Assembly (NCBI GenBank): GCA_002869665.1 | Contig: PKUG01000122.1 | Coordinates: forward strand, 1-36,786 | Origin: Desulfuromonas sp. | Lineage (GTDB): Bacteria > Desulfobacterota > Desulfuromonadia > Desulfuromonadales > Geopsychrobacteraceae | Direction of reading: 5' to 3' | Length of the DNA: 36,786 bases | Shown: piece after piece, positions 1 to 20,145 of the stretch | Numbering within the stretch: the first letter of the stretch is position 1 | How the letters are laid out: every line of letters begins with the position of its first letter | Made by a program: the position numbers and the translations under genes | The notes under the pieces: model-generated | What the model saw: only the letters and a program-made list of their open reading frames with translations | Told to the model about the DNA's origin: nothing | Database searches by the model: none

Positions 1-1396
1 AACGGAAGCCGATCGGCAGGGTATCTGTGATGGTAACCGCCGGTGCTTTAGCCTTGCTGCTGTTGTTTTCGAGCGTCAGTCGGTACTGGAGGAAATCGCC
101 GATGCTGACGCTCTCGTTGCTGGCATCTTTCTTCAGCCACAATTCGGTGCTCGCCGGATCGACGGGGATGTCGATGCGTACGGCGGGACCCGGATTGATG
201 GTGAAGGTTCCCACCCACTGGCCGTTCTCCCAGCCGAGTGCGGTGGTGTAGCCGCTGCTCGGCCACCAGCTGCTGGCCAGCAGTTGTGCTTCGCTGGCGT
301 CTGACGGTGCCGCATAGCCGTCCGGCGGGATGATCTCGAGGCGGTAGGTGCCGGGGAGCAGATAGGGGAAGCGGAAGCCGCCGGTCGGGAGCTGGTATTC
401 CTCGCCCCCGGTGTCGGTCACGGTGCCGCCGGTGATGACCGTGGCCGGATAGGTACTCAGGGTGTCGTTGCCGAAAACCTGGGCCGGTTGTCCGGTCGCG
501 ACATCGATCAGGGTAACGCTGGCGCCGTCGAGGGGTTCGCCGGTTGTGCTGTCATAGACGTAGCCGTAGGGATCGATCAGCGCGGCATCGGCAGTCGTGT
601 CGGTGTTGTCGGCGACATCGACATAGTGAACCTGGAGTTCGCAGTTGTTCTGTACCAGCAGACTGCCGTCAACAACGGCCGAACCGGATGCGAGTGAAGG
701 GATGTACCCGGTGAAGACTCCGGCATCCGGACCGGTTTCGCTCAGGAGCAGAACTTCCGTATCGCCGGTCTCTGTGCAGGAGATGGTAACGATAACGGTT
801 TCGATCTGAGTCGGATCGAGGTTCTGGTCGAGGTCGGTCAGACTCAGGTAGATCAGTTCCCCGGGGTAGTAGATCGGCGCCCCGAGCAGCGGCACGTCAC
901 TGCCGGTGGCCTCATCCGCGACCGGGATGAGGATGAATGTTCCGTTATCCTGATAATAGGTGTCCGCGACCGGTACCGGCAGGGCATTGCTCTCCGGGCG
1001 CGGGGAATACTTGAGAAACTCGATGATCGCCGGGCTCCGGACGACATAAGAAACGGTATTGGAAGGTTCCTGCGGTTGCGGAACCTCGGACACCTGATAG
1101 TCGACGTAGGCCGTGTTGGAAATTGTCTCACCGTAAGGCGCCGCGTCGGCCTGGCTGCCGCTAAGGACGGCCAGCAGCACGCCGATCAGTACGAGCAGGT
1201 GGCTGATGCGGTGGCCGTATCGTTCAGCGCTGAAGGTTCGGCCGGCCGGCTGACCTGGTAAAGAATCAGCCGCCCCATTGCCAAACAGGATTCGGCCCGG
1301 ACCTTGCGGACGCAGTTCTGCCGTCAGCACCGCACCCAAGGTGCGGAGCAGCAGGAAAAACGTCCTGACAAGTTTTTGTGCCGGGCTCAAATCCAT
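1..1396 (-). CDS. 5' part of a large DUF11/SdrD_B-like surface or outer-membrane protein, truncated by the window edge; paralog of 7744..12777
   Basis: Reverse-complement translation from ATG at 1396 stays open to base 1 (MDLSPAQKLVRTFFLLLRTLGAVL...HRISHLLVLIGVLLAVLSGSQADAAPYGETISNTAYVDYQVSE...LTDLDQNLDPTQIETVIVTI...GDTEVLLLSETGPDAGVFTGYIPS...). Matches the 1677-aa protein (VTDQDQNLDPTRAETLVITLTADGTGDTEVLILTETGVDTGVFTGYIQS). Not in the ORF track because there is no in-window stop. Confidence 0.85.
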   Translation of the reverse strand, partial: MDLSPAQKLVRTFFLLLRTLGAVLTAELRPQGPGRILFGNGAADSLPGQPAGRTFSAERYGHRISHLLVLIGVLLAVLSGSQADAAPYGETISNTAYVDYQVSEVPQPQEPSNTVSYVVRSPAIIEFLKYSPRPESNALPVPVADTYYQDNGTFILIPVADEATGSDVPLLGAPIYYPGELIYLSLTDLDQNLDPTQIETVIVTISCTETGDTEVLLLSETGPDAGVFTGYIPSLASGSAVVDGSLLVQNNCELQVHYVDVADNTDTTADAALIDPYGYVYDSTTGEPLDGASVTLIDVATGQPAQVFGNDTLSTYPATVITGGTVTDTGGEEYQLPTGGFRFPYLLPGTYRLEIIPPDGYAAPSDASEAQLLASSWWPSSGYTTALGWENGQWVGTFTINPGPAVRIDIPVDPASTELWLKKDASNESVSIGDFLQYRLTLENNSSKAKAPAVTITDTLPIGFR

Positions 1397-1406
1397 GTGT
1401 TTTCGC

Positions 1407-2648
1407 TTACTCCTCGATGATCACGCGGAACTTGACGGTGTAAATGTGCTCGCTGTCGACTCCGTCATTGAACGGCAGGGTCGCTTTGGCGGCCTTGATA
1501 TACTTGACCGCAGCGTCAGCATCGCCACTGCTACCGACCGGGACATAGGTCCAGGTGCTGGTGTCGCTGTTACTGAAGGTCACGTCACCGGACGGATCTG
1601 CCGAGCCGACCACGTAGTCTGTGTTCGTCGGAATCGGGTCGACCAGTGCCAGGCCCGAAGCGTCGGTGGAGGTACTGGTGTTGGTCACGGTGATGGTGTA
1701 CTCGACCACGGCGCCGGGGATCGCTTTGGCATCAACGGATACACCGTTGATCGGATCGGAGATGACCTCGTAATCTTTTTCAACCGTGATGGCTGCCGTG
1801 GTGATGACGAAATAGCCAGTCGCCACAGCTGCGCCGTCCGGGGTATCCGAGTCCAGATCCAGGATGCTACCTCCCGCACCATCGGAATCGGTGTCATCGC
1901 CGAGGACAACAGCAACGCCGCAGCCGTTGGTATCATCGGAATCTGTGCTCTGTATCCAGGTCGCGCCGACGCTGTGGTCGCCGGGGGAGTTTGACGAATC
2001 GTTGTAGGCAACGGCCCGCAGGGTAAAGAGGTCCTTGAGACCATCGGCTGCGCTGGCCGGGGCTTGGGCAACAACATGGACGTAGATGACGCCTGCCGGG
2101 GCGACAAAAGCACTGTCATCGGCTGCCGTCGGATCGCCGGGGGCAAGGCCGAGGTCAGAGCCGTCCTGGGCGGTTTCCGAAGCGGCGACCAGCACTTCGG
2201 TGCCACCCGAGCCATAGGTGGCATCGGTGTCACTGTAGACACGGACGGTCGTCATGTCGAAGCCGTCAACGTCGGTGCCGACGGTTTCCCCGTCGCGGTC
2301 GTACAGTTGCAGCATGTAGCGGGCGTCGTCATTCCCGGTGTTGGTGATTTTGAAGGTGATCACGTAGTCGTTGGTGTCATTCGGGATGACGGATGTCGGG
2401 CTGACCTCGGTGACGTTGGTCAGGTTGACCAGGGTGGCAACCTTGAAAACGGTTGGATCGCTGCCGGACCCATCGTCGTCAGACAGGATCTGATCCTGAT
2501 CGACCGTGCCGACCTTGTAGTCGAGGGTGGCCTGGTTGCTGATCTCCGTACAGGCCTCGGTGAGGGCTGCAGCCGCGTTGCCGACATAACCGGCCAGCAG
2601 CAGGACCCCGGCGAATAATGCAATTCGCAGTTGGTAGTAACGTCCCAT
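1407..2648 (-). CDS. Secreted protein with C-terminal DUF11 domain (413 aa)
   Basis: ORF with signal peptide (LFAGVLLLAGYVGNAAAA), N-terminal ISNQATLDYKVG motif, C-terminal VVEYTITVTNTSTSTDASGLALVDPIPTNTDYVVGSA...VKFRVIIEE. Confidence 0.85.
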   Translation of the reverse strand: MGRYYQLRIALFAGVLLLAGYVGNAAAALTEACTEISNQATLDYKVGTVDQDQILSDDDGSGSDPTVFKVATLVNLTNVTEVSPTSVIPNDTNDYVITFKITNTGNDDARYMLQLYDRDGETVGTDVDGFDMTTVRVYSDTDATYGSGGTEVLVAASETAQDGSDLGLAPGDPTAADDSAFVAPAGVIYVHVVAQAPASAADGLKDLFTLRAVAYNDSSNSPGDHSVGATWIQSTDSDDTNGCGVAVVLGDDTDSDGAGGSILDLDSDTPDGAAVATGYFVITTAAITVEKDYEVISDPINGVSVDAKAIPGAVVEYTITVTNTSTSTDASGLALVDPIPTNTDYVVGSADPSGDVTFSNSDTSTWTYVPVGSSGDADAAVKYIKAAKATLPFNDGVDSEHIYTVKFRVIIEE

Positions 2649-2781
2649 AGATGTTCTCCTTTGTGTTGGTGTTACTGGTTTGATGTGCTGTTCTTTAAAG
2701 CGTTTGACTTTGCTCTGTTCGCCTCTTTGTTTATTGACGTTCTATCTGTTACGGCATTTTTACGGCCGCCATCTTCTGTGA

Positions 2782-3264
2782 TTATTTGACGCGTACACGA
2801 AATTCCACCATCCCCGACTCCCCAGGCTGCAGCGGGGTCAGCAACTTCCAGCGAATGTTGGTGTACTCCTTCGGGTCGATCGGGACCTCGCCCCCCTTGC
2901 CGTCGGCTACGGTCAATTGCGCGGCCGGAGCAAAGGTCTTGCCGCCATCGATGGAAAAGGTCAGCTCGTAGCCGCTCTCGGTCGCGCTGCCGGCAAGGTA
3001 CTCGGTATTCGCGGGGATCGGGTTATTGATGACCAGGTCACTGGCCGCTTCCGGGGTGTTGTTGGTGAAGCTGTTGGTATAGATGGCGACTTCGCCGGGC
3101 TCCAGCAGGATCGCCTGTTCGCGGACCAGTTCGGGTTTGCCGTCGCCATCGTACATCTGGCGTTCGACCTCGGCCTTCGAGTTGAAGCTGATTCCATCGG
3201 CGGCCAGCGAAAGGGCCGGCAGCAACAGCAGCAGGAAGAGGGTGAAACTGACGAAACGGTTCAT
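2782..3264 (-). CDS. Small secreted single-DUF11-domain protein (160 aa)
   Basis: Signal peptide MNRFVSFTLFLLLLLPALSLA; NPIPANTEYLAGSATESG...GMVEFRVRVK; clear paralog of the 164-aa protein at 15773..16267. Confidence 0.85.
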   Translation of the reverse strand: MNRFVSFTLFLLLLLPALSLAADGISFNSKAEVERQMYDGDGKPELVREQAILLEPGEVAIYTNSFTNNTPEAASDLVINNPIPANTEYLAGSATESGYELTFSIDGGKTFAPAAQLTVADGKGGEVPIDPKEYTNIRWKLLTPLQPGESGMVEFRVRVK

Positions 3265-3322
3265 GCGTTTTTCTCCTCGTTAAACAGCGCCTGGCGCTGA
3301 CCGGTTACGTTCTTAAGTGGTA

Positions 3323-6300
3323 TCACTCGAGTCTGACCCGGAAAATCAGGCTGAAGTCCGCGGGATTGCCCGTCCCATCCAGTCCACCCATTTCCCCATC
3401 CATGGTGATCCGCAGACAGCGGATGGCGGGATCAAAGCCGTCAGCATCGGGATTCAGACTTAGTGCCGCTGTGCTGCATCCGGCGTCGGTGAAATAATCC
3501 AGGGTGAACGGTGGAATCAGGTCCGGCGCCGTTCCGGTGAGGACAAAACCGCTGTCGCTGTCGCCATCGCTGAAGGCCACGGGGCTGTTCTGGTTAGTGT
3601 CGATCCGCCCCTGGACCATGAGTTGAGTCGCTGCCGGGATCGGATCGCTGATCAGCAGGCTGTCCTCGTCAACCGAACCGCCGCCAGTATTCGAGACCTG
3701 CAGGGTGTAATCGACATAGGCACCGGGGATCGCTTTCGGGTTCGTCGTTCCGTTGATCGGGTCGTAAACCGGGGTTGCCATCTTTGAAAACAGCAGGGTG
3801 ACCACGTCGAGGGGAACGGTACGGGTTGCCGTCGGCGAGGTGACCCCGCTGATGCTTGCCGTGGCGATGTTGGTGACTTTGCCGGCCAGAACATCGGCCG
3901 TCACCACCGTGTAAGTCGCTGAGCAGGTCAGTTTCTCCCCGGGGTCGAGATAGTTGTCGCCGTCACCGGCCGAATCGTCGGCGGCAAGGACCGCTGTGCT
4001 GACTGCGGGGCAGCTTTCATCCGTCGCTTTGTCGTCATCGATCGTCATCGGCCCGGCCAGGGGGGCGTTGCCGCTGTTGGTGACGACAAAGCTGTAATGC
4101 AGGACATCGGCGGCGGCGGAGAAGGTCGATTCCGTCGCGGTTTTGACCAATGTCAGGCCGGTGGTGGCGTAGGTTGCCGAGTCCGAATCGCTGTAGTCGC
4201 TACCGCCATAGGTTCCGGTGGCCGTGGCTGTATTGATCTGGGTGCCGGCAGTGGCGCTGACCGGTCCGACCACACAGGTGGCGATATGATCGTCATCGTT
4301 GGCGTCGGCAACCGGCAGAGGGGCAGGCCAGCTGCAGCTTGCCGTACTGACATCCGGATCGCTGACGCTGACCGGAGAGAGGGGCACGTCGCCGGCGTTT
4401 TCGATGGTCAGTTGGTAATAAACAGGATCACCCTCGGCGACGGCAAGGTAGGATTTCCAGGGGCCGGTCGCAGAAGCCCCGACCTGTTTGAGCAGGGCGA
4501 TAGCCGGATGTGGAGCGGTGACGTTAAGAGTGTCGCTGGCGGTATTGCCATCGACCGTTTCACTGTTGATGGTATGAGCGACGGTGCCGCTGGTGTTGGC
4601 GTATTCGCCGATGGCCGGGGCCGTAATGTCGACGCTGACCGTGCAAATGCCGCCGGCGGCGAGCGTGCCGCCGCTGAATGTGAGGGTTCCATCCCCCGCT
4701 GCCGGGCTGAAGGTCGGCGAACCGCAATCCGAGGTGGCTGCATTCGGTGTCGCGGCGACAACCATGGCTGCAGGGGTGGTCGGCAGAACATCACTGAACG
4801 CAATCCCACTCAAGGCGTTGTCCGGATTGGGATTGACGATGGTGAAGGTCAAGGTCGAGGTGCCGCCGGCCAGAATCGGATTAGGTGCGAACTGTTTGCT
4901 GACCGACGGCGGGTTCACAGCGATCAGGCTGGCGGTGGCGATGCCGGTGGCCGTATTGTTGGGGCCGCTTTCCGTCGCTGTGACGATGCTGCTGATGTTT
5001 TCATGCGGACCATCCGAGGAAACCGTGACGTCGACATTGACCGTGCAGGTGCCGCCGGTGACGATGCTACCGCCCGTGAAGGAGATTGCACCATCTCCTG
5101 CCGACGGAGCGAACGTGGGAGAGCCGCAGCCGGTGCTGCTTGCGTTCGGGGCTGCCGCAACGGTGACATCGGTCGGCAGGGTATCGCTGAAGGCAACCCC
5201 GCTCAGGTCTGTTCCGCTATTCGGGTTCGTGAGCGTAAAGGTCAAAGTCGAGGTGCCGTCGACCTTCACGGGGTTCGGCGAAAAGGCCTTGGCCAAGGTC
5301 GGCGGGTCGGGGTTCAGGCAGCCGGTGATGATGACATTGTCGAGATAGAGCGGCGACGGCGAATTGGTTTTTGCGCCGGCGGCAATGATGCGGAATTTGG
5401 TGTTCTGGTTGGTACTCGCCGTCGAATAGGCGTAGGACGTCCAGGACGTCGGCAAGGGGGTGGTGTCGATCTGTTGTGTCAGCGTTCCACTCTCATCGCT
5501 GAATAGATACAGGTGGTTTGTCCCGCCCCAACTGCCACTCTTGATGTAGGCGTCATACCAGATACCGACCCCGCCGTACTTTGTTGTGTCCACGTCGAAA
5601 TCGATGTAGGCCTGGGTACTTGATGTTGCCGTCGATGCCGTGGTGTAGCCGCTGGTTTTCCACGAATTCGCATTCAGTACAGTTCCCGAAGCATCCGAAC
5701 CGCTGGCATCGATCTCGCCCGTCGCGCTTGCCCCAACGATCGCGGCAGATACCGTGACCCCGGTGACTGGTCCCGATGATGGCGTCGGGCTGAAGATATT
5801 CGTAGTGCCACTGCTGTAATTCGTGAAGTCCCAGGTTGCCAGCGTGACTTCCTGTCCTGGACAGCTTGAGGGGGGGGACGGCGGCGGATAGGAGGTGGTG
5901 TCCGCGACCAGTGATGCAGTCGCGTCGTCACCGGTATCGGTGCTGCCGACAAAGAGGTTCTCCGAATCGTTGTCATAGGTTCCGGCGCTGGCGACGGTCA
6001 CGTTGACCTTGACGCTGCACTTGCCGTAAGCCGGGATGGTCCCGTCACTGAATGAGAGAGTGGTGTCGTCGATGGCCGGAGTAAATGTCGGTGTTCCGCA
6101 GCCGCTGGTGGTCGCGCCGGTCGGGTCGGCGACGGTCATTCCGCTCGGCAGGTTGTCGACAAAACTCACATTGTTGAGCACCGCCCCGTTCGGGTTGGAG
6201 AGGGTAAAGGTCAGGGCGGAGATTCCTGAGACATTGACTGGGGTCGGATTGAAACTTTTGCTGATGGTTGCCGTCGCGGGGTCGACGATGATGATACTGC

Positions 6301-7282
6301 GGCCGCCGACCAGGTAGTCAGAGTTGTAATGGAAGCTGCTACCGGAAAAATCGTAGATCAGTGACAACAGGTCGATGGGGGTGCCGCCGGAGGGGAGGTC
6401 CTTGATCAGCACCCGATAGGTAACCGTCAGGGTTCCCCCGGCTTTGCCGACATCGGTACATCCCAGGTAGATCGGGCTGTTGGGGTCGTTTTCCCAGGAG
6501 CAGGCATCGGCATACAGCTTGTCGTTCGGCGAACTGACATAGGCCGAGGTATCGGCCGTATAGGTGGTATCGACCTTCAGCAGCTGAAAGATGATGTTGG
6601 GCAGGGTCGAAAAGCTCTCCAACTGTTCGTAACCCTGAGTCGCGGTATAACTCGACATGCGCAGTTCATAGATCTCCCCCTTGACCAGGGCGAACGCGCT
6701 GCCGGCGCCGACGGAGGTCCATGCCAGTTCGGTGCCCGGTGACGCAACATAGGGGCGGTATTCGAGGTTGGTGATGGCGTTGCGCCCCTGAGAGACCAAA
6801 TGTTCGACATACAGTTCCCGTGGGATCGGCGTCGATTCCCCGCCGGCGCTGATATGGTACTGGCGCGTGGTGTCGAACGCGGCCGCGGTCCGGTCGACCT
6901 CAACTTCAAAGTAGGCATCGAGGCAGTCGGCAGCACTAAAGTCAAGGGTGACCGAACTCGGCGAACTGCTGCTCAGACCGATGTAGCTGTTGCTTGAGTC
7001 CCAGTTGAACGTGGCCAAAACACTTCCTGCGCTGTCGCTGCAGACGCGGGCGCCGACGGGGAAGCGGTTCGGGCCGAAGGCCGGACTGTTACTGTCAAGG
7101 CCGATGATGTTCCAGGTGATGGGGGTCACCGAGGTGACCGCGGCATGGGTGTTTAAAACGGAGCAGAAGAACAGTATGACTGCGAGACAGAACAGTATAA
7201 CAGCTGGGCGCTGCTGGAACATTCCAGAACGGTTCTGGTTGTGGTCAGATGTGAAGAGGGCACTGGGCATAGAGGTCATCAA
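3323..7282 (-). CDS. Large secreted multi-DUF11 repeat protein (up to 1319 aa)
   Basis: Long ORF, hydrophobic signal region, repeated KxFxPNPVxVxGxSxLTFTLxNPN...SDxLPxxxxVA...GCGxPTFxPxxGDxxxxFxxGxxxxGGxCxVxVDVT units. Start uncertain (ATG codons at 7279, 7267 and 7222). Confidence 0.88.
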   Translation of the reverse strand: MMTSMPSALFTSDHNQNRSGMFQQRPAVILFCLAVILFFCSVLNTHAAVTSVTPITWNIIGLDSNSPAFGPNRFPVGARVCSDSAGSVLATFNWDSSNSYIGLSSSSPSSVTLDFSAADCLDAYFEVEVDRTAAAFDTTRQYHISAGGESTPIPRELYVEHLVSQGRNAITNLEYRPYVASPGTELAWTSVGAGSAFALVKGEIYELRMSSYTATQGYEQLESFSTLPNIIFQLLKVDTTYTADTSAYVSSPNDKLYADACSWENDPNSPIYLGCTDVGKAGGTLTVTYRVLIKDLPSGGTPIDLLSLIYDFSGSSFHYNSDYLVGGRSIIIVDPATATISKSFNPTPVNVSGISALTFTLSNPNGAVLNNVSFVDNLPSGMTVADPTGATTSGCGTPTFTPAIDDTTLSFSDGTIPAYGKCSVKVNVTVASAGTYDNDSENLFVGSTDTGDDATASLVADTTSYPPPSPPSSCPGQEVTLATWDFTNYSSGTTNIFSPTPSSGPVTGVTVSAAIVGASATGEIDASGSDASGTVLNANSWKTSGYTTASTATSSTQAYIDFDVDTTKYGGVGIWYDAYIKSGSWGGTNHLYLFSDESGTLTQQIDTTPLPTSWTSYAYSTASTNQNTKFRIIAAGAKTNSPSPLYLDNVIITGCLNPDPPTLAKAFSPNPVKVDGTSTLTFTLTNPNSGTDLSGVAFSDTLPTDVTVAAAPNASSTGCGSPTFAPSAGDGAISFTGGSIVTGGTCTVNVDVTVSSDGPHENISSIVTATESGPNNTATGIATASLIAVNPPSVSKQFAPNPILAGGTSTLTFTIVNPNPDNALSGIAFSDVLPTTPAAMVVAATPNAATSDCGSPTFSPAAGDGTLTFSGGTLAAGGICTVSVDITAPAIGEYANTSGTVAHTINSETVDGNTASDTLNVTAPHPAIALLKQVGASATGPWKSYLAVAEGDPVYYQLTIENAGDVPLSPVSVSDPDVSTASCSWPAPLPVADANDDDHIATCVVGPVSATAGTQINTATATGTYGGSDYSDSDSATYATTGLTLVKTATESTFSAAADVLHYSFVVTNSGNAPLAGPMTIDDDKATDESCPAVSTAVLAADDSAGDGDNYLDPGEKLTCSATYTVVTADVLAGKVTNIATASISGVTSPTATRTVPLDVVTLLFSKMATPVYDPINGTTNPKAIPGAYVDYTLQVSNTGGGSVDEDSLLISDPIPAATQLMVQGRIDTNQNSPVAFSDGDSDSGFVLTGTAPDLIPPFTLDYFTDAGCSTAALSLNPDADGFDPAIRCLRITMDGEMGGLDGTGNPADFSLIFRVRLE

Positions 7283-7292
7283 TCGCAGAAAA

Positions 7293-7371
7293 TAAAAAAG
7301 AGACGCTAGCGGTATGCAGGCCGAACCGGTTGCGGTGACATCGGGGTCCTCTTCGGCTGCATGGGCGTCTC
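7293..7371 (-). terminator. Terminator-like structured element at the end of the module B leader
   Basis: Minus strand GAGACGC...GCGTCTC outer stem (7365-7371/7300-7306) and inner ATGCAGCCGAA/TTCGG(C)CTGCAT stem with one bulge, followed by a TTTTTTATTTT tract. Confidence 0.65.
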
Positions 7372-7407
7372 CTGTTCTTAAACAGTAATATGTCGGACGT
7401 ATGTGTT

Positions 7408-7560
7408 TACTCTGTTTTGATGACTTTTAATTTCCTCCCTTCGCCTTGCATCGCGTTTGCGATGGAGATGTGGGAGCGGGTGTCGCCGAGACAGTGAGTC
7501 TTTGCCGATCGCGACATTTGATTTACTTTTCATGATTTTAAAACACCGTTGAAAATACAT
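7408..7560 (-). other. Structured 5' leader of the 3323..7282 gene; alternatively part of a small basic ORF (MKSKSNVAIGKDSLSRRHPLPHLHRKRDARRREEIKSHQNRVNTYVRHITV)
   Basis: Helices read directly: 7481-7486/7511-7516 (tgtcgc/gcgaca), 7449-7454/7459-7464 (catcgc/gcgatg), 7435-7439/7472-7476 (ctccc/gggag). An open frame (track 7378..7560) also covers it. Confidence 0.4.
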
Positions 7561-7743
7561 TGATTCTCAAAAAAAGACAACAGGTTATCTACTGATTTAG
7601 TCAACATTTAATCAGTTCTGTTAAATATGTCGTTCATATCTTATTTGTGGTATGGGGTGGTCCGCACAGAATCTTCCCGTCGATGTCTGGCGGATCTTCC
7701 ACTGAAGAGTTCGCGGTTGAGCGCGCTGCTGCGTCCGGTTTGA

Positions 7744-10700
7744 TCAATCCTGTCGCAACCAATCCAGCGCTTCGCGGACACTGTGCTGGTCGAACTTGAA
7801 GCGGAACTTGAGGAAGGCTCCCTGGGCTGTGTAGTTGGCGACACTGAAGTCGTCGTCGCGGAAGCCGCTGAAGTTGTAGCCAAGGCTGACCCAGAAGTTG
7901 GTCATGACCTGGTAGCCGATGGAGGCGCCGCTGCTGAACTCGAACTGCTGACTGTTCCAGCTGTGGAGAATGCTGCCGTGGAGGCCGAGATCCCAACGGT
8001 CGGTCAGGTTGTAGCGGGTTTCGAGGGCGAACAGGTCGGTAAAGCCGCTGTAGGTATCGCCGCTGAAATTGTCACTGACGTACTTCAGGCCGTAGTAGGG
8101 GGCGATCTGCCAGCGGCGGTTGACTTTGTAGTTGGCGTGCATGTTGTTGACGATGCGCCATGAGGTATCGGTTTCTGTTGACGATGAGAGCCGATCATAT
8201 TCGACATCGAGGCGATCGAGGATAATCCAGCGGCTTTCCAGCGGGCGGTAGGCGAGTCCGAGGCGGAGTTCGTTTTCCAGGTTGTCGCTGGACGAAGATT
8301 TGGTGATGTAGCCGGTATAGCGCGCCGATGCCGAGATCCCTTCACTCAGTTCGCCGACCAGTTCGGAGAGCAGGTTGTACTTGTCCTGACTGTCGGAGTG
8401 ATGAACCTCGAAGCGGTTGGCCCACGACCAGTCGTCCTGCTGGTAGGTCGCACCGAGAGAAACGGCGGTATAGTCTTCGTCACTGCCATGGGTTGTCGCC
8501 GTGGCGCTGTCGAAGTCGTAGTTCCCCTCGTCAACGATGGTATAGCTGCGATCGAGGTTGGCATCGAAGCTCCAGTTCTGATTCAGCTGCCAGGTCTGGC
8601 CGAGGCCGAAGAGGGCGAAGATCCGCTCGCCGTTTTCATCGAGCTGGCGCTCGAGGGTGGTTTCCGTTGTGCCGCCGCGCCACGGTGTCGCCTTGATGCC
8701 GGCCCTGGTCCCTTCGGTCTCCTTCAGGTCGCCCCAGGTGAATTCCTGCTCGGCGAAGAGGCTGATATTGCGGCTCAGACGATATTCGGCGCCGAGGCTG
8801 GTGAGGGTCGGATAGTCACTGTTCTCGTCCTTGCCGACGAGGGCCTGCTCATGATCGATACTCAGAACCAGTTTGTCGTTTGCAGAGGTCCACTCGGCGC
8901 CGGCCAACAGCTGGAGGCTGGTACGGGTATCGCCGTCACCCAGATCGTCGCGGGCTCCACGCAGGCCGCCGTTCAGTGCGAGCCGCTCAAGTTCGTACGT
9001 GGCGTCGAGTTCGAGGACATCGCGTTTGGCGCCGGTATCCAGGTTGTCTTCGTGCCAGGTCAGGGCCGACAGGGTCGTGTTGTCGTTCAGCTGGTAGCTG
9101 CCTTCCAGCCCGTACTTGCGGGTGCCGCTCTCGTCGTCACTCTGCTGGCCGAGGCCGAAGCCTCCATCCTGCTGGCGGAAGTAAGCCTTGCCTTCAAGCT
9201 TGTCGGATGTGTGTTCAAGTTCGACCAGCCAGGCGTTACCGTGGGCCTTCCCCTCGTCATCTTCCGTTTGGGTCGTCGCGCCTTCGACGCGCAGTTCGGT
9301 ATGCTCACCGAGTTTCACTGTGGCATCGAGGCCGGTGAGATCTCCCTTGTCGGTCCCGGCCTGCTCGTGGATGTGGCTGGCACCGACTTCCAGTTTCTGG
9401 TCGAACAGCTTGACCGCTGCGCGGCCGCCGTAATTCAATTCGCTGGAGTCGGAGGCCTTGGTCTCGTAACGGGCGACGATGAAGATCGGATTGAAATCGT
9501 CATCGCTGCTGGAAATCGGCCGCTTGAAGAAGAGCGTCCCGTCGTTGTAGTCGATTGTGTAGTCGACGTAACGCTGCATGCTCTCCGAGTTGATGATCAC
9601 CTCGCTGCGGTAGCGATCACGGGTCTCGATGACGATCTCTTCCGAGTTGATGACCAGATCGCCGGTGGAGAGGTGATAGGTCCCCGAGGTGCCGTCGCCG
9701 CGGATTTCATCCCTGTTGAACGCCTGGCGGGTCTGGGCGACAAACAGGGTGTAGGCGAAGTGTTCGGTCTCCAGCCCCGATTTAAAGCCGTTCAGGCTGC
9801 GACTGTAGCGCGACAGCTCGGTCTCGGTGAGGTCGGTCTGCATGTCGCCGAACATGGCGTAGAACTGGTCCCGTTCGAGCTTGACGTAAAGCTTGCGGGC
9901 GCTCGGTGCATCGTATTTCTGCTGGGTTTCATCGCCGTAGAGCGGGTAATAGGCATCCGGGTCGATGATCTGCTGCAGGGTTTCGGCATCGCCGTTGTTG
10001 CGTTCCGAGTCGTAGGCCAGGGTCAGCAGCCATTCCCCCTTGATCGCCCCCTTGGCGAAGAACTTGACCTGGCCGTCTTCGTAGAGATGGTCTTCGATCC
10101 CCGCCTCTTTCAGGCTGTCGCTGTTCCCCGAGAGGGTGTTGTAGCCGAGGGTGCCTTCGGCGAAGCCGACCATGATCCAGTCCCGCAGTTGCGGCTGGAC
10201 GTAGGTCTCCATCTCGATGTTCCTGTCGTCGAAGGCGAGTGTCGCGCGATAGCGGCCGCTGTCCTGAGTCGGCTGGAAGAGCGCGTAACCCTGGGCGTCA
10301 ACGGTGACGTAGTTATCGTTTCTGGTCGGCAGATCGGCCTCACTCTGGGGCCGGTACGGCTTCAGGTTGCCGTCGACGAGTTCGAGCTCCGTTGCGCTCT
10401 GGATGTCCTTGCCGTTTTCATCGCGCAGCTGCAGTTTGACCCGGATCGGGGTGACGCCGTCGGCAATGTTCCCCGTGGTGTCGATCACGCGGATCTCGGC
10501 AATCTGACCGGAGCGGTAAACCGTCAGCTCCTGCTTGTAGCGGGCATTGCCGAACGGCCCGATTCCCTCCAGGCGCACCTGGTGGGTTCCCGCGGCGCCG
10601 AAATTGACGCCGATGTAGGTGTAGATCGTGTGCTTCGACTCGGGGTCGGCCATGCTGAAGCCGATCCGCTCTTTCGGGATCTCTTCACCGTCCACGATCA

Positions 10701-12777
10701 GGCGCGGTTTGAGCCGTGAGTCGAGGTTGATCCGGACCGTACTGATCGATGTCGAGAGGACCTCCCCGTCAACGGGCGAGAGGATCGCGTTTTCGCTGCC
10801 GACTCTGCTGCCGCTCAGTTCGGCTGCGGTGGCGTCGACCGGGGCTTCGGTTGTTGTCTCCGGCTGGTATCCTTCTTTCCGCTGGACATGGAAGTCAGCC
10901 CGCCACATGGTCCCTCCCTGCAGATCGATGAACTGCGAGAAGGTACGGCCGGCAAACTGGTTGTTGGCTTCGCAGAGGGTCGCCTCGTACGCAGTCGGCA
11001 GCGAATCGGTATCGAGCTGGACGACATGGGTCCCCGGCTCGATCCCTTCAAAATGATAGTTCCCGCGCTCGTCGGTAATGACGAAGCTACCGTCTTCGAG
11101 GTAGATGCGGGCATCCTTGAGCCCTTCCAGCTCGGTGTCTTCGGCGTCACAGCCGGCGATCATCACCCGCCCCATGAGCAGGGCTTCGCTGCGCAGGAAT
11201 TCTTCACGGATCAGAACCTTGGCGCTCGCCGTATTGGAGACGAGGTCGTCAGCGCCGGTGGCCACGGCCTGGTTCGTGTGATAACCCGACGTGGTTCCGG
11301 CCGTGACTTCCGTGACGTAGCTGATTTCGACGTTCGCGCCGACAGCCAGGTCGCCTAGGGTGTAGGTCAGCGTGCGACCGTCAGCGGAAATCTCGGGATC
11401 ATCACCGGCGATTCCGTCGATCCGGCTGGATCCTGCTTGATAGCTGAAGCTGGACGGCAGGATGTCGTTAACGCTGACAGTTCGGGCGATGCCGCCATTA
11501 TCCTGGTTTTCAACGGTGATTTTCCAGAGGATGAAGTCGCCGATCGCGGCCTGGGTCTTGTTGGCGCTCTTACGGATCCAGAGTCCGGTGCTGCGTGGAT
11601 CGAGCGGAATGTCGATACGGATGGCCGGGCCGGGGCTGATGACAAAGTCCTCGCCACGCGAACCGTCGACGATGGCAAAGGGTGCGCCCGGCAGAGTTTG
11701 CAGCTCTTCCGTGGCAACCGTCGACGGCGCGCTATAGCCGTTCGGTGGAACGATTTCGTAACGATAAGTGCCGGGTGCGACGAGCGGGAAACGGAAGCCG
11801 CCCGCCGGCGGTGTGTAGAGATTGCCACTCTCGTCGCTGACCGGTTGGCCACTGTAAACGGTGGCCGGGAAGCTGCTCACCCCGTCATCGCCGTAGACGG
11901 TGGCCGGCAGGCCGGTCGTCACGTCGATCAGGGTAATCTGAGCGCCGTCGATCGGGGTGCCGGTCGAGCTGTCGAAGACCAGTCCGAGCGGGTCGACCAT
12001 GGCGGCAGCGGTGGCGACATCGGTGTTGTCGACCTTGTCGGTGTAGCGGGCCTCGATGGTGTGGTCCTGGGCCACGGAGAGGATGCCGTCATAATCGGAC
12101 GATACCTCTCCCGTCGACTGGATGTAGCCGGTGAAGACCCCTGTATCCACACCGGTTTCGGTCAGGATCAGGACTTCGGTGTCCCCGGTCCCATCCGCCG
12201 TCAGGGTGATCACCAGGGTTTCGGCCCGGGTCGGATCGAGGTTCTGATCCTGGTCGGTGACCTGGATGAAGATGGGGGCCCCCTGGTGATAGTACTCGGT
12301 TTCAACCAGCGACAGGGACCGGTTGATATCGATGGTGGTACCGTCGATCAGTTGCGGCGCGGAGAGATCTGCGAAGGGGTCGTCTTCTGCCGACCCGGTT
12401 CGATACGCGGTGGTGGAGACCGGAATCTCGTCTGCGGCCGGATTGGTCGGCGCATATTGCAGGAAAATGATTTCTGCCGGTGTGCGCTCGACGCTGGTTA
12501 CGGTGACGAAGCTCGATGACAGCAGCTCGCCGTTGCCGATAAGCCAGGCTGAGTTGACGATTTGGGCCGCCTGGGCGGCCAGTGCGGTTGACCACAGGAT
12601 GGTGAAAACCGCCAGGGTCATCACCAGGGTCTGTAGTGCGCGTAGAGATATGCGGCCGGACGGGCGCAGGGCGCACCGCTCCCGTTGTCCCCTGAGGCGG
12701 GTCGCCGGGCCGGTGAGGCTGCCGACCGTCAAGCCGGCAGCCTCTTTCCGCATATGAGTGAAACGTTCTCTACGCAT
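7744..12777 (-). CDS. DUF11/SdrD_B-like domain protein with predicted C-terminal outer-membrane beta-barrel (1677 aa)
   Basis: N-terminal DUF11 segment (GDFILWKITVENQDNGG..VSVNDILPSSFSYQAGSS), carboxypeptidase-regulatory/SdrD_B-like segment (ARIYLEDGSFVITDERGNYHFEGIEPGTHVVQLD), plug-like motif (SMQRYVDYTIDYNDGTLFFKRPI), then about 600 aa of alternating amphipathic strands ending AQGAFLKFRFKFDQHSVREALDWLRQD. Confidence 0.88.
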   Translation of the reverse strand: MRRERFTHMRKEAAGLTVGSLTGPATRLRGQRERCALRPSGRISLRALQTLVMTLAVFTILWSTALAAQAAQIVNSAWLIGNGELLSSSFVTVTSVERTPAEIIFLQYAPTNPAADEIPVSTTAYRTGSAEDDPFADLSAPQLIDGTTIDINRSLSLVETEYYHQGAPIFIQVTDQDQNLDPTRAETLVITLTADGTGDTEVLILTETGVDTGVFTGYIQSTGEVSSDYDGILSVAQDHTIEARYTDKVDNTDVATAAAMVDPLGLVFDSSTGTPIDGAQITLIDVTTGLPATVYGDDGVSSFPATVYSGQPVSDESGNLYTPPAGGFRFPLVAPGTYRYEIVPPNGYSAPSTVATEELQTLPGAPFAIVDGSRGEDFVISPGPAIRIDIPLDPRSTGLWIRKSANKTQAAIGDFILWKITVENQDNGGIARTVSVNDILPSSFSYQAGSSRIDGIAGDDPEISADGRTLTYTLGDLAVGANVEISYVTEVTAGTTSGYHTNQAVATGADDLVSNTASAKVLIREEFLRSEALLMGRVMIAGCDAEDTELEGLKDARIYLEDGSFVITDERGNYHFEGIEPGTHVVQLDTDSLPTAYEATLCEANNQFAGRTFSQFIDLQGGTMWRADFHVQRKEGYQPETTTEAPVDATAAELSGSRVGSENAILSPVDGEVLSTSISTVRINLDSRLKPRLIVDGEEIPKERIGFSMADPESKHTIYTYIGVNFGAAGTHQVRLEGIGPFGNARYKQELTVYRSGQIAEIRVIDTTGNIADGVTPIRVKLQLRDENGKDIQSATELELVDGNLKPYRPQSEADLPTRNDNYVTVDAQGYALFQPTQDSGRYRATLAFDDRNIEMETYVQPQLRDWIMVGFAEGTLGYNTLSGNSDSLKEAGIEDHLYEDGQVKFFAKGAIKGEWLLTLAYDSERNNGDAETLQQIIDPDAYYPLYGDETQQKYDAPSARKLYVKLERDQFYAMFGDMQTDLTETELSRYSRSLNGFKSGLETEHFAYTLFVAQTRQAFNRDEIRGDGTSGTYHLSTGDLVINSEEIVIETRDRYRSEVIINSESMQRYVDYTIDYNDGTLFFKRPISSSDDDFNPIFIVARYETKASDSSELNYGGRAAVKLFDQKLEVGASHIHEQAGTDKGDLTGLDATVKLGEHTELRVEGATTQTEDDEGKAHGNAWLVELEHTSDKLEGKAYFRQQDGGFGLGQQSDDESGTRKYGLEGSYQLNDNTTLSALTWHEDNLDTGAKRDVLELDATYELERLALNGGLRGARDDLGDGDTRTSLQLLAGAEWTSANDKLVLSIDHEQALVGKDENSDYPTLTSLGAEYRLSRNISLFAEQEFTWGDLKETEGTRAGIKATPWRGGTTETTLERQLDENGERIFALFGLGQTWQLNQNWSFDANLDRSYTIVDEGNYDFDSATATTHGSDEDYTAVSLGATYQQDDWSWANRFEVHHSDSQDKYNLLSELVGELSEGISASARYTGYITKSSSSDNLENELRLGLAYRPLESRWIILDRLDVEYDRLSSSTETDTSWRIVNNMHANYKVNRRWQIAPYYGLKYVSDNFSGDTYSGFTDLFALETRYNLTDRWDLGLHGSILHSWNSQQFEFSSGASIGYQVMTNFWVSLGYNFSGFRDDDFSVANYTAQGAFLKFRFKFDQHSVREALDWLRQD

Positions 12778-12793
12778 TCAACCCTGTGGTGTC

Positions 12794-14014
12794 CTAGTCG
12801 TTGTTCAGTTGCACGCGATAGAGGATGAAGACAGTTTGGTCCCCGTCGATGATGCCATCGGCACCGGCAACGGTCGTATCCGAGTCGATGACAACGGTCA
12901 GGGTCCCCGTTGCGCTGACATAGGTTGCTGCGTCCCCGTTGGCCGCGGCGGTATAGGTGACGGGGGTGTTGGTGCCGTCATCGTAAAGCACCGCGTTGTT
13001 GGCGTAATCGGCAACACTGGTGAGGAGGCTGACGAAATCGATCGGCAGGACGTCATTGACTTCTGCCGTGTCGACCGGACCGCTACCGCTGTTGCGGGCG
13101 ACCAGCATGTATTCGAGGATGTCGCCAGGCTCTGCCGTGACGCCTGACTGATAAAACTCTTCTCCGTCGTAGGTCGTTTGCGGAGCGTCGCCGACAACAC
13201 CGCTGGTGACGTTACGGACGTACTTACCCAGTGTCGCCTTGCCGCTCAGGTAGGTATCCTGAACCGGGTCGGAGGTTGTGCTCTCGTCTCCATCTTCCTG
13301 CGAGGTGACGGTCAGGGTCTTTTCGAAGGTGATGTCGGTTCCGATGGTGGCGATGGTACCGGCGGTCACTGTAACCGTGACGGTCTGCTTCTCGGCAACC
13401 AGGACACCGGCGTCCGGGGCGGTATCAAGTGCCGTAACCAGATAGATAGTCGATGTGCCGCTGGCATTGTCGTCGACACTGGCAACCTCGATGGTCTCGT
13501 TGCCGATGACCACGATGTCCCCTTCCTCGATACCGTTGACTTCGTCGTCAGCCACGCCGTCCGCGGGTACAACGATGCTGGTGGTTGTGCTCGAGTCGTC
13601 AAAGGTGAGGGTGGCACCGAGGTAGATGCTCGCAACATCAACCGTCGCTGTCGGGTTGGTGGTGTTGTCGATGCTCGAAGCAATAATCTGGGTTGTCACA
13701 TCGTAGTAATCCGGACCGTTGGCGGTGGCCGTCACGTAGAAACTGTTGGTCAGTTCGGTGTTCGGGCCGTTGTAGTAGGTCTCCTGATCCGGGCCGGGAT
13801 CGACAATCGGTGCGTTCGGCACGAGCAGGACGGTGACTTCGACGTAGGCGATCGCTTCTTTGAGGCCGTCGCCGTCGTCATACGACAGGGTCGCCTGGTT
13901 GATGATCGCGGTATTGGCCGCCACGTTCGCCAGGGCATTGCCGGCGACTGCGACCAGGCCGATCACCAGCAGCAGGCCGACGATAAATCTGATAGATGAA
14001 TTTTTCATGTTCAC
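12794..14014 (-). CDS. Secreted protein with C-terminal DUF11-like domain (406 aa)
   Basis: Signal peptide (FIVGLLLVIGLVAVAGNALA), IINQATLSYDDG motif, C-terminal DILEYMLVARNSGSGPVDTAEVNDVLP...ILYRVQLNND. Confidence 0.85.
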   Translation of the reverse strand: MNMKNSSIRFIVGLLLVIGLVAVAGNALANVAANTAIINQATLSYDDGDGLKEAIAYVEVTVLLVPNAPIVDPGPDQETYYNGPNTELTNSFYVTATANGPDYYDVTTQIIASSIDNTTNPTATVDVASIYLGATLTFDDSSTTTSIVVPADGVADDEVNGIEEGDIVVIGNETIEVASVDDNASGTSTIYLVTALDTAPDAGVLVAEKQTVTVTVTAGTIATIGTDITFEKTLTVTSQEDGDESTTSDPVQDTYLSGKATLGKYVRNVTSGVVGDAPQTTYDGEEFYQSGVTAEPGDILEYMLVARNSGSGPVDTAEVNDVLPIDFVSLLTSVADYANNAVLYDDGTNTPVTYTAAANGDAATYVSATGTLTVVIDSDTTVAGADGIIDGDQTVFILYRVQLNND

Positions 14015-14037
14015 TCCTGTTTATGCGGATTCATCTG

Positions 14038-14065
14038 GCGGGCAGCGGAAAGTTCCGCTGCCCGC
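14038..14065 (-). other. Strong intergenic hairpin between the 466-aa and 406-aa genes
   Basis: gcgggcagcggaa-ag-ttccgctgcccgc, 13-bp perfect inverted repeat, no T-tract. Confidence 0.7.
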
Positions 14066-14075
14066 GGGGTTGTTG

Positions 14076-15476
14076 TTAGTCGATGGTGACCTGGTAAAGA
14101 ATCGTGTAGGTCGCACTGTTGGCGACGGTGCCGCCGGCGGCGTTGGTCGAAGTGTCTCCGATGTAGAAGGTGATATCCTGACCGGCAGCAGTGCCGGTGG
14201 CGTTGCCGAAACCGGTTTCCGTCGGAGCGCCGGCCTGGGTTTCCGAATCCCCGGAGCCCATGGTGACTTCGACGTCATTTGTGCCGTCACTGATCTGGGC
14301 AAAGATGTCGGTAGCATCGCCAGGACTGGCGACATCGATGGTGCCGTCATAGGAGTCGGAGAAGTTTACCAGGGTGGTGTACGCGGGAACGGCGTCGGTG
14401 ACGACGACGTTGGCCGCGGTCCCTTCAGCGTTGGTGATGGTAACGCGGTACTCGATCAGGTCGCCGGGGTTTCCGGCTGCTGCGCCCCAACCGGTCCAGG
14501 TGGTGCCGCCATCAGCGGAAACACGGGCTTCCTTCTGGATTTCCAGCTCGGTGCCGGTGAAGGTGACGGTACAGGAGATGGTCTCCGGGTTGCCGTCGCT
14601 GTCGGTTACCGTGAAGGTGTAATCGACAGTACCGTCAGTTGCGGCATCGGGGCCGGCAGAAGCGGTCACGTCGATACGGATCAGGACCTGCTCGGCAGCC
14701 AGTTCGCCGAGGACAGCGTCAGTAAAGGTCGGGGTTGCGGAACCGCCGACGGTAGTGCCGAGAATGGTTTGCTGGGTGTAGCCGACCAGGGTCAGGGATC
14801 CCTGGGTTTCAGTGGTCTCAGTCCCTTCATCGGCATAGGACTGGGTCTGATCATCGTTGGTGTGGCTGCGGGCGACACCTACAGAAACAGCTGAAACCAG
14901 GTAGGAGACGCCGTCGACGACGACGATGTCGTCAACCGAGAAACCGGCCAGAGCGCCGCCGGGGAAGTAGAGGGTATTGGCGCCATCATGACCGACGATG
15001 ACTGCGCTACCGAGGGTGTAATCGGTGATCGGGCTGGCGGCAACCTGGGTACCTTCGTAATCAAGGATGGCATAGGCCAGGGTGATATTCGTTGCATTGT
15101 CACCGGTGCCGTCATCGGCAATCGCCATGTCGTAGAGATCGTCACCGTTGGCGGTGGCGGTCAGAGCGTAGAGCATCTGAGCGGTTGCGCCCGAAGCGTA
15201 GTCGGTCGTGTCACAGACCAGACCAGGATTGGCCGTAACGTCGGTCGGCGCAGCCGAAGCGGTCAGTGCCGAGGGGACCAGGTTGACGGTGACGGTCGCC
15301 GAGGCTTCGGCGTCAAAGCTGTTGTTGCCGCTGGCATCGGTGTAGGCAACATGGACAACGTTAACGATGTCGGTATCTGCTGTTGTGTTCGCGAATGCGG
15401 AGCCGCAGGTGAGGGCGAACAGGGCGACGAGCGCCAGAACGCCGATCAGGGTTCTTTTGGTTCTCTGTTGAGTCAT
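14076..15476 (-). CDS. Secreted protein with C-terminal DUF11-like domain (466 aa from the internal ATG)
   Basis: The track ORF extends to 15617, but ATG at 15476 (MTQQRTKRTLIGVLALVALFALTCGSAFA) has an AAGGAG upstream and starts a signal peptide. C-terminus GDLIEYRVTITNAEGTAANVVVTDAVPAYTTLV...ATYTILYQVTID. Confidence 0.85.
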   Translation of the reverse strand: MTQQRTKRTLIGVLALVALFALTCGSAFANTTADTDIVNVVHVAYTDASGNNSFDAEASATVTVNLVPSALTASAAPTDVTANPGLVCDTTDYASGATAQMLYALTATANGDDLYDMAIADDGTGDNATNITLAYAILDYEGTQVAASPITDYTLGSAVIVGHDGANTLYFPGGALAGFSVDDIVVVDGVSYLVSAVSVGVARSHTNDDQTQSYADEGTETTETQGSLTLVGYTQQTILGTTVGGSATPTFTDAVLGELAAEQVLIRIDVTASAGPDAATDGTVDYTFTVTDSDGNPETISCTVTFTGTELEIQKEARVSADGGTTWTGWGAAAGNPGDLIEYRVTITNAEGTAANVVVTDAVPAYTTLVNFSDSYDGTIDVASPGDATDIFAQISDGTNDVEVTMGSGDSETQAGAPTETGFGNATGTAAGQDITFYIGDTSTNAAGGTVANSATYTILYQVTID

Positions 15477-15718
15477 TGTTTTTCTCCTTATTGTGGTTTG
15501 AAAAGTGGTTTCGGCAGCTGTGCTGCCGCAATCAATGGGTGGCCGGTTCTCGGGACCGTGCCGATTTCTGACCGGGGATCCTCTGTTTTTCGTCTCTTTT
15601 TGTCTTTTCATAATCATTCTCCTTTTCGTTTCAGTTCTGCTTTTGAACCTTTGCTTTTGGTAAAAATCGTGTTGCTAACGTGCTTTTCGATTATTTTCGG
15701 TCTGTTAACGTCTTGTTC

Positions 15719-15760
15719 GATTCCGATTCCGATTCCGATTCCGATTCCGATTCCGATTCC
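15719..15760. repeat. Perfect hexanucleotide tandem repeat (GATTCC)x7
   Basis: Direct reading of 15719-15760, immediately 3' of the 164-aa gene stop. Confidence 0.97.
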
Positions 15761-15772
15761 GATGACGGTTTT

Positions 15773-16267
15773 TTATTTCATCAGGACCCGGAAGGAGACC
15801 GCACCCTTCTCGCCGGCGGCAATCTCGGGGATTAGCCAGCGGATGTGGGTGTACTCTTCCGGTGTCGCGATTTTCTGCTCCTTGACGCCGATTGTGTTGG
15901 TCACTTCGTAGGTCAGCAGCGACGGGCGTTTGTAGGACTGGCCGTTGTCGATGGAGAAGGTCAGCTCTCCGGCCGCGGTGGCGCTGCCGGCGACGTAACC
16001 GGCGCCCGTGGGGATCGGGTCGACAATGGCGACGTTGGTGGCTTTTTCATCCCCCTGGTTATCGAATTTAATGGTGTAGATCAGGGTCTCCCCCGGTGTG
16101 ACCTCGGTGGCCTCGATACGCTTGACGACCTGCTGGCCGTTCTCTTCGACGGTGACCTCTTTTTCAACAGCCAGCGTCAGTTTGATGTTCGGTGCTGCCC
16201 AGGCTGCCAGCGGGACCAGCAGGATCAGGGCGAGAAGGAGTGCTACGCGACTTTTCATTCTGTTCAT
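15773..16267 (-). CDS. Small secreted single-DUF11-domain protein (164 aa)
   Basis: Signal peptide MNRMKSRVALLLALILLVPLAAWA; GETLIYTIKFDNQGDEKATNVAIVDPIPTGAGYVAGSA...GAVSFRVLMK. Confidence 0.85.
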   Translation of the reverse strand: MNRMKSRVALLLALILLVPLAAWAAPNIKLTLAVEKEVTVEENGQQVVKRIEATEVTPGETLIYTIKFDNQGDEKATNVAIVDPIPTGAGYVAGSATAAGELTFSIDNGQSYKRPSLLTYEVTNTIGVKEQKIATPEEYTHIRWLIPEIAAGEKGAVSFRVLMK

Positions 16268-19400: not shown

Positions 19401-19800
19401 CATCCTGGCCAACGAAGAAGCCGACATCGTAACGGTCGGTATTCGTGCCGTAGAGGCGAAGGTCGATGAGGAATTCAAAACTTTCACCGGCGACACAGAA
19501 GGGGACTGTGTCTTCAGAGGCGCTGAACACCGGGTCGACAGTAAACTCGCCGGCGGTACAGTTGAGCGCGGAACCATAGCGATCCCCCGCGCAGCTGAGG
19601 TCGGGTTCCGCATGTGTGGTTGCATCGTAGGCGAACGCCCGATGCGTTGTGAGGGAGAAGCAAATACAGAAGACGAAGATGGACAAAAGAAGTCGCCGCG
19701 TAACCAGGTTTCGTATGCTCTGGTTTGCGAGAACTCTATCGTCAGCCCTCTTTATGGCATGATGAGTCAGATCGTTGACTGAAGAAATAATAGTTTTCAT
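16429..19800 (-). CDS. Large secreted multi-DUF11 protein with prealbumin-like (DUF5979-type) segments (1123 aa)
   Basis: Signal-like LLLSIFVFCICFSLTTHRAFA; ITLRKVLNGRTVSADQFTVSATSNATLYGTTSAS..., several LxKxFxPTPVGIGQPSALTFTLTNPG... repeats, C-terminal DUF11 ending FRLEYKVKVK. Confidence 0.87.
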   Translation of the reverse strand: MKTIISSVNDLTHHAIKRADDRVLANQSIRNLVTRRLLLSIFVFCICFSLTTHRAFAYDATTHAEPDLSCAGDRYGSALNCTAGEFTVDPVFSASEDTVPFCVAGESFEFLIDLRLYGTNTDRYDVGFFVGQDGNNPWEVTGTNNCSVAIFPETPYPWGDLDANRNDCGDYYGYGDSVTRIDKIKVNCTGDASGYLQVPYVVTYWQNTTSTCTDEWTVSSPSKSKCNSGISTVSGDVKVMSGAYVDVTKVTTPSGDSEIFELGATGPTGSTVISRVGTVYTPADIDLATNSTAAYVADGQTARFFINALATDQTLTITETDPAPSWESEVSISCSDVAGLGSPTVTTNDTTRTITATLNTTDLAQACTLTNTKRPKITLRKVLNGRTVSADQFTVSATSNATLYGTTSASTSGTLPETVETTFYSAPYLSGTTAPTITITDALSAGTSQLSDYESRLTCTNAYAGGTTGLPSDALQTSYSFDPVPGDDITCTFTNSPKVQLSKIFDPTPVGIGQPSALTFTLTNPGSATARSAGLTFSDTLPAGVVIADPANVVNNCGGTPTITATPGSSSFTVGGTGVAAAAGTSSCTISVDVLSETAGAYINGSTNISAYASAIRNDVTDQTLTVVQPSLDKEFSTTTIVERETSTLTFTLTNGTGDPAQAGINFTDTLPTNVFVAVSPNIATSCSPGTGIITAAAGGSTIAVSGASMNDGQGSCTISVDVTSAVPGGPYNNTSANISGEYHIVNAVTTSGLTVLAMPEITVLKQSNNNTGSFSFSGTNGVGSFSLDTNAANPQTSATFEATTVTTATDISETLPSADWLLVSADCTDGSNTFGTLTGTTLTIPAAYVAYNAEIFCTFINRYLAADLAIAKAVNNVIPRAGQNVIFTLTVTNNGPDSTDGVSVSDLLPTGFSYVSDDGGGNYVSTTGVWTIGTLANGASATLNITATVNDRDVATVDSDYTNNADVSGNRYDYDSSNNSDSAYVNPPSPLLSITKSADKSSVDPGEVISYSVRVTNTGTGAATTVVVDDDMSPYTAWSLDAFGSGVPFALTQLATGTPADSGVALGTATYYDETDTAITPVSDGDGAGSGYDGRVKRFELTLPGTMVLDGQFRLEYKVKVK

Positions 19801-19829
19801 TTGTTAACTGTTGTCCGCTCTTGGAACAT
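19797..19829 (-). CDS. Possible 10-codon upstream ORF (MFQERTTVNK*) overlapping the start codon of the 1123-aa gene
   Basis: GGGGGAG 8 nt upstream of ATG at 19829; its TGA overlaps the downstream ATG (AAATGA). Confidence 0.35.
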   Translation of the reverse strand: MFQERTTVNK

Positions 19830-19963: not shown

Positions 19964-19999
19964 AAAAAAGCACCTGCCGTGAGCCGATAAGGTGCTTTT
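19964..19999 (-). terminator. Intrinsic terminator forming the likely expression platform of the riboswitch
   Basis: Minus strand AAAAGCACCT-TATCGGCTCACGGC-AGGTGCTTTTTT, 10-bp stem plus T-tract. Confidence 0.85.
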
Positions 20000-20047
20000 C
20001 CCCATTTTTCCCCGTATTTTTCTTAAGGGACTGTGTTCTGGGAAATG

Positions 20048-20145
20048 CACCTCTCTTCGGCAACCAGGCAGTCCGACCAAGCTAACTAGCCGGATCCAGG
20101 GCTTTGCGTAACCGTTATTGCGGCGTTGCTCTTTTCGGAGAGGCG
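20048..20145 (-). ncRNA. GEMM-I family cyclic-dinucleotide riboswitch aptamer, candidate GEMM-Ib (cGAMP) subclass
   Basis: Minus strand CGCCTCTC CGAAAAGAGCAACGCCGCAATAACGGTTACGCAAAGCCCTGGATCCGGCTAGTTAGCTTGGTCGGACTGCCTGGTTGCCGAA GAGAGGTG: 8-bp P1 (CGCCTCTC/GAGAGGTG, one G-U), conserved ACGCAAAGCC, P3 TCCG...CGGA, and CTGCCTGGTTGCCG like the GEMM 3' consensus (Vc2 TAGCGGGGTTACCG). Confidence 0.82.

Follow-up and report, generated by a model that had tools for sequence, protein, structure and literature searches.

Our analysis identifies the minus strand at 20145–19964 of the window (the whole 36,786-nucleotide stretch of Desulfuromonas sp. DNA analysed here) as a divergent GEMM-I riboswitch leader, judging by its sequence and predicted fold. 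In the reading we favour, it is probably an OFF switch, acting on transcription, of the gene for a secreted DUF11 protein at 16429–19800, and its likeliest ligand would be 3',3'-cGAMP.

A scan of the window with Rfam cmscan returned a single match, RF01051 (c-di-GMP-I), at 20140–20056 over model positions 1–87; its score of 35.2 bits just exceeds the gathering score of 35, with E = 0.002 over the whole window and 2.2e-5 over a 401-base stretch. A covariance model (R1), seeded with 29 aptamers from the window's order and excluding the window itself, scored 45.8 bits over 20150–20046 (E ~1e-15, R1 E-values being rough). Folded without constraints, the aptamer segment adopts the GEMM three-way junction as its minimum-free-energy (MFE) structure, with P1, the ligand-adjacent base pair, P2 and P3, and the GEMM-I core junction bases are in place at 20109–20102, at 20061–20057 and in the pair 20136–20059; those inspected were A47 in ACGCAAAG, C92 in GCCGA and the P1 closing pair. 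The preliminary description of this DNA had claimed a GEMM-I aptamer and named an Infernal search with RF01051 as its check; both that search and the window-free R1 model uphold the claim, and all the elements it named lie on the minus strand where it had placed them (Table 1).

Table 1. Features of the riboswitch leader and of the downstream genes, in window coordinates.
Feature	Position	Strand	Remarks
P1 5' strand CGCCUCUC	20138..20145	-	8-bp pairing with 20055-20048, in the aptamer MFE
P1 3' strand GAGAGGUG	20055-20048	-	pairs with the P1 5' strand
ACGCAAAGCC	20109-20100	-	present, as described earlier
Aptamer 3' core GGUUGCCGAAGAG		-	present
GEMM-I aptamer core	20056..20140	-	RF01051 and R1
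A20-equivalent, ligand-selectivity position	20130	-	Vc2 numbering; A14 of 4YAZ
P2 base, G21 C22 (20129-20128) with G45 C46 (20107-20106)	20106..20129	-	c-di-GMP-type orientation
Atypical P2, GCCG / CGGU	20111..20124	-	4 bp, hexaloop CAAUAA (20120-20115), without GNRA tetraloop
P3	20063..20102	-	additional 9-bp apical hairpin; conserved stem interrupted by one U.U mismatch (alignments, fold)
Strand A GCCGAAGAGAGGUGC	20047..20061	-	pairs with the P1 5' strand or strand T; includes the P1 3' strand
Antiterminator extension UUUCCC	20040..20045	-	pairs with GGGGAA (20003-19998 region); full-leader MFE, duplex fold
Strand T GCACCUUAUCGGC	19983..19995	-	terminator 5' arm and loop; antiterminator partner
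Intrinsic terminator AAAGCACCU (19998-19990) / AGGUGCUUU (19975-19967)	19964..19998	-	T-tract 19969-19964
P0001, 1123 aa	16429..19800	-	DUF7933, SpaA-like and DUF11 domains (translation, Pfam, NCBIfam)
Co-directional ORFs	2..16267	-	to the window edge; most with DUF11-type repeats (Pfam, NCBIfam)
ORFs within the DUF11-type run	15773-16267, 14076-15617, 12794-14014, 7744-12777	-	
ORFs within the DUF11-type run	3323-7282, 2782-3264, 1407-2648, 2-1396	-	

The full-length score of this aptamer is the lowest among 120 aligned GEMM-I sites, and it is also the weakest GEMM-I match within its own genome. P2, correctly described earlier as short and atypical with a loop near CAATAA, lacks the GNRA cap that usually docks into P3, a peripheral GEMM-I feature found in 119 of 119 other sites. 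The C at position 25 (A25 to C, 20125) is likewise confined to the window among the 120 sites, and the U at position 42 (G42 to U, 20110) occurs in three of them, the window included. Loss of P2–P3 docking is expected to weaken binding. Because of the lost GNRA loop, the two substitutions and the P3 mismatch, affinity may be poor, and the window copy may be a weak binder or a relic. No close orthologue of the leader was found in 136 genomes of the order, in which the best aptamer matches are ~68–76% identical and represent other GEMM-I copies.

The features unique to this site, namely the missing GNRA loop and the C at position 25, together with its weak score and an unliganded MFE in the antiterminator state, would be expected of a decaying riboswitch, whose aptamer binds poorly, whose leader mostly adopts the antiterminator and whose DUF11 gene is constitutively on. 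We consider this less likely than a functional switch, though it has a real chance: P1 and the bases that contact the ligand are kept, as is an antiterminator/terminator pair of great strength and precise match, and without selection these would not be expected to stay intact for long. We favour a functional switch, and infer that it would bind its ligand despite the reduced P2.

The identity of that ligand depends on position 20. The preliminary description had read an A at the position of G20 in Vc2, allowing that a proper alignment might place a G there; both structural alignments (RF01051 and R1) set A20130 opposite the consensus G20. When the ligand contacts of 4YAZ (Geomonas; PMC6274999) were mapped by eye onto the window sequence, G8, A9, A11, A12 and A14 were all kept, as G20136, A20135, A20133, A20132 and A20130, and so were A41, A42, C75 and the G8–C76 pair, as A20105, A20104, C20060 and G20136–C20059. 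The sole pocket difference is the pair 21–46, which is C15–G40 in 4YAZ and G20129–C20106, the c-di-GMP type, in the window. Because only this pair differs, and does so as in c-di-GMP-I, the window element is A20 on a c-di-GMP scaffold. The earlier label GEMM-Ib is thus right about the A at position 20, but the inverted C21–G46 pair and the ON platform of that class are both absent, and the label should be narrowed to an A20 variant on a c-di-GMP-I scaffold, of predicted OFF type. A Vc2 mutant with the same change, G20A (4YB1), binds cGAMP (PMC6274999, PMC7288161). From A20 on a G21–C46 scaffold we infer 3',3'-cGAMP as the likeliest ligand, with c-di-GMP perhaps as a second one.

The expression platform suggests how such a ligand would act. 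Strand A, which carries the C75/C92-equivalent at 20060 and takes part in the G8–C76-equivalent pair 20136–20059, can pair either within P1 or with strand T of the terminator. The A:T duplex has a computed energy of −28.9 kcal/mol (z −6.4), and 0 of 2000 shuffles of either strand were as good, which substantiates the mutual exclusion between the P1 3' strand and the terminator 5' strand proposed earlier. In equilibrium folds of the growing transcript, the aptamer is retained until the RNA end reaches 19995 and the antiterminator prevails from 19985 onward; for the full-length leader, equilibrium estimates give −64.8 kcal/mol for the antiterminator versus −59.9 kcal/mol for P1 plus terminator, a gap that could be paid by a ligand.

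Two platforms have been described for this family (PMC9262584): in Cd1 the ligand causes termination, and in pilM it prevents termination. In our folding models, the window has the Cd1 layout, not that of pilM, with an A:T antiterminator exclusive with P1 and an independent T:H terminator that begins 63 nt past the aptamer core. Ligand should terminate transcription, given the pairing between the 3' strand of the aptamer and the 5' arm of the terminator; this agrees with the ligand-induced termination put forward in the preliminary description, which is still a prediction. The predicted OFF polarity is the reverse of that of known cGAMP switches, a point missed at that stage. In the mechanism we propose, the nascent leader would first fold the three-way-junction aptamer. 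Without ligand, transcription of the 5' arm would draw the strand 20061–20040 out of P1 into the antiterminator, allowing read-through, while a bound cyclic dinucleotide would lock P1, leaving the 5' arm free to form the terminator at 19998–19967 and stop transcription.

To place this polarity among relatives, we surveyed GEMM-I sites of the window's order and of Geomonas, typing them by position 20 and the 21–46 pair and classing platforms by terminator start position and complementarity to the aptamer 3' strand. All 20 sites with A20 and C21–Y22/GG (canonical GEMM-Ib; CU or CC with GG) are of ON type, and G20 sites on the inverted scaffold are ON in 13 cases, with no terminator found in five. 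On the G21–C46 scaffold, sites with G20 comprised 50 OFF, eight downstream but unclear, five called ON and three without a terminator; those with A20, the window's class, comprised 15 OFF, 14 downstream but unclear, five without a terminator and four called ON. Several of the 14 unclear sites contain CUUCGG, the complement of CCGAAG in the aptamer, and two of the four ON calls are artefacts, the automatic calls at L033 and L076 having been rejected as long hairpins that enclose a normal downstream terminator. At L094, L096 and L100, with A20 on G21–C46, the terminator reuses the aptamer 3' strand in ON-type fashion; these look like real exceptions.

Scaffold and polarity are associated with a Fisher p of ~1e-19 (~1.5e-7 within A20 only), values that overstate the evidence because the sites are related. 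The pattern among the predicted platforms is plain all the same: platform tracks the scaffold, not position 20. The Cd1-like layout is the rule among relatives on the G21–C46 scaffold, which supports an OFF switch in the window. A Geobacter-like riboswitch of the canonical GEMM-Ib class, with cGAMP as its activating ligand, is very improbable here; it would account for A20 and suit an order with GacA-like synthases and canonical GEMM-Ib sites among the relatives, but the inverted 21–46 pair is absent and the aptamer 3' strand does not double as the terminator 5' arm, unlike in 20 of 20 canonical sites, where the terminator begins 1 to 10 nt before the core.

The survey points to two groups of A20 sites whose predicted polarities are opposite, which we find a more interesting result than the single window copy. 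The two occur together in G009 (L086/L093 and L209), G032 (L119 and L203), G038 (L028 and L216) and Geomonas azotofigens (L144 and L148/L153). The notion that canonical A20-YY sites are absent from the family was ruled out, as a further covariance model (R2) finds them. On the C21 C22 / GG scaffold, G20 with an ON-type platform was seen at sites including L004 (1501–1588), L084, L087, L098, L071, L095, L097, L099, L077 and L038; G20 sites on the inverted scaffold are possibly c-di-GMP or reverted ON switches. At the GEMM-I site L221 (1501–1579), a C stands at position 20 instead of G or A (AATCGCAAACC).

The genome to which the window belongs, 3.12 Mb in 203 contigs with a completeness of 88.65%, contains nine GEMM-I sites, the same nine by Rfam and R1, with no canonical A20-YY site found among them and the inverted scaffold present once, with G20 (L004). 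Six carry A20 (L001, L003, L005, L007, L008 and the window) and three G20 (L002, L004 and L006). L001, L003 and L005 lie within ~3.4 kb (G000 contig C61), and each stands before a gene set, of response-regulator or small roadblock-like type, that seems to be repeated. Two of the genome's 16 GGDEF matches bear the Hypr signature (Ser in GHxxGS plus GGDEF, as defined in PMC6456294); for the GGDEF domains of both, the top PDB match is 6d9m, the Hypr domain of G. metallireducens GacA, and they are probable cGAMP synthases. The GacA-like one of the two recurs in every one of the 41 genomes searched across the order, and the Ser is there in each of the 30 that were checked. With Hypr-type GGDEFs present, this cell may plausibly use cGAMP as a messenger. 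On contig C94 of G006 (L156 / L167), a Hypr-type GGDEF adjoins another GGDEF, whose selectivity site has Asn (GHETGN), and two tandem GEMM-I sites lie near the latter.

This genome also encodes many canonical GGDEFs, and the window's scaffold and OFF platform are common to G20 (c-di-GMP-type) sites. A functional OFF switch sensing mainly c-di-GMP could be imagined on these grounds, with A20 on G21–C46 still binding that molecule; protonated adenine lets cGAMP riboswitches bind c-di-GMP, and lower-P2 changes alter selectivity (PMC9262584). We judge this unlikely, since A20 is an established cGAMP marker, an A20G change makes the cGAMP sensor Gmet_0970 a sensor of c-di-GMP (PMC6456294), and Hypr synthases are present. 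Our preferred ligand is accordingly still 3',3'-cGAMP.

Regulation would fall on the gene for P0001, whose N-terminal hydrophobic stretch, recognised by eye, is a probable secretion signal; with its DUF11 domains, this fits the secreted DUF11 protein that had been proposed downstream. A terminator upstream of the riboswitch (20363–20339) probably closes the previous minus-strand gene, so that a separate transcript probably begins with the riboswitch; a consensus scan matched no sigma-70-like promoter upstream of the leader. After a GGGGGAG stretch, a short ORF at 19829–19799 (ATGTTCCAAGAG...AAATGA, MFQERTTVNK) ends in an ATGA that overlaps the P0001 start codon, a possible case of translational coupling. 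The DUF11 run looks like two tandem copies (19800–7744 and 7282–2) of one cassette, made up of a large DUF7933/DUF11 protein, a ~160-aa DUF11 protein, a 410–510-aa protein and a large protein, the second copy being without a riboswitch match. A conserved gene–riboswitch association was considered and rejected: by Rfam and R1, no GEMM-I lies upstream of P0001 homologues in Geomonas (52–58%), a Thermodesulfovibrionales MAG, a Polaromonas MAG and G014 (38%), so riboswitch control of P0001 would be lineage-specific.

Taken more broadly, natural A20 aptamers on G21–C46 might constitute a second, separately built, repressing class of cGAMP riboswitches, with the window as a reduced-P2 member that represses a DUF11 surface system at high cGAMP; we advance this tentatively. 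If true, the scaffold would fix polarity and position 20 the ligand, and genomes with both A20 classes, such as the four named above, would use one messenger for on and off. The A20 rule serves to call cGAMP riboswitches, and the tested cGAMP switches we met in the literature are ON; because the two A20 groups differ in predicted polarity, reading A20 as 'cGAMP turns on' would misjudge many Geobacter-relative regulons. On the scaffold of the window element one can ask cleanly whether the ligand is set by position 20 alone, the change being that of Vc2 G20A. It also links surface DUF11 proteins to predicted cyclic-dinucleotide control, a combination for which our literature search, covering material other than the primary 2015 cGAMP-class reports, returned no paper joining cGAMP, riboswitch and DUF11.

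Compared with known systems, the window element resembles Cd1 in that a T+H terminator and an A+T antiterminator compete (PMC9262584). Like c-di-GMP-I riboswitches (RF01051; Vc2 and the OFF switch Cd1), it has the three-way junction, G21–C46 at the P2 base, ACGCAAAG and the GCCGA core; unlike them, it has A20 in place of G20, a 4-bp P2 without GNRA, and the substitutions A25C and G42U. With GEMM-Ib (4YAZ; the Geobacter pilM and pgcA switches) it shares A20, equal contact bases and a lineage with Hypr GGDEFs, but not the C21–G46 pair or the ON platform of canonical members, where the terminator takes its 5' arm from the aptamer 3' strand. Vc2 retains a longer P2 with a GNRA loop, which the window lacks. 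In carrying A20 on G21–C46, the window element is a natural counterpart of Vc2 G20A (4YB1), an engineered cGAMP binder.
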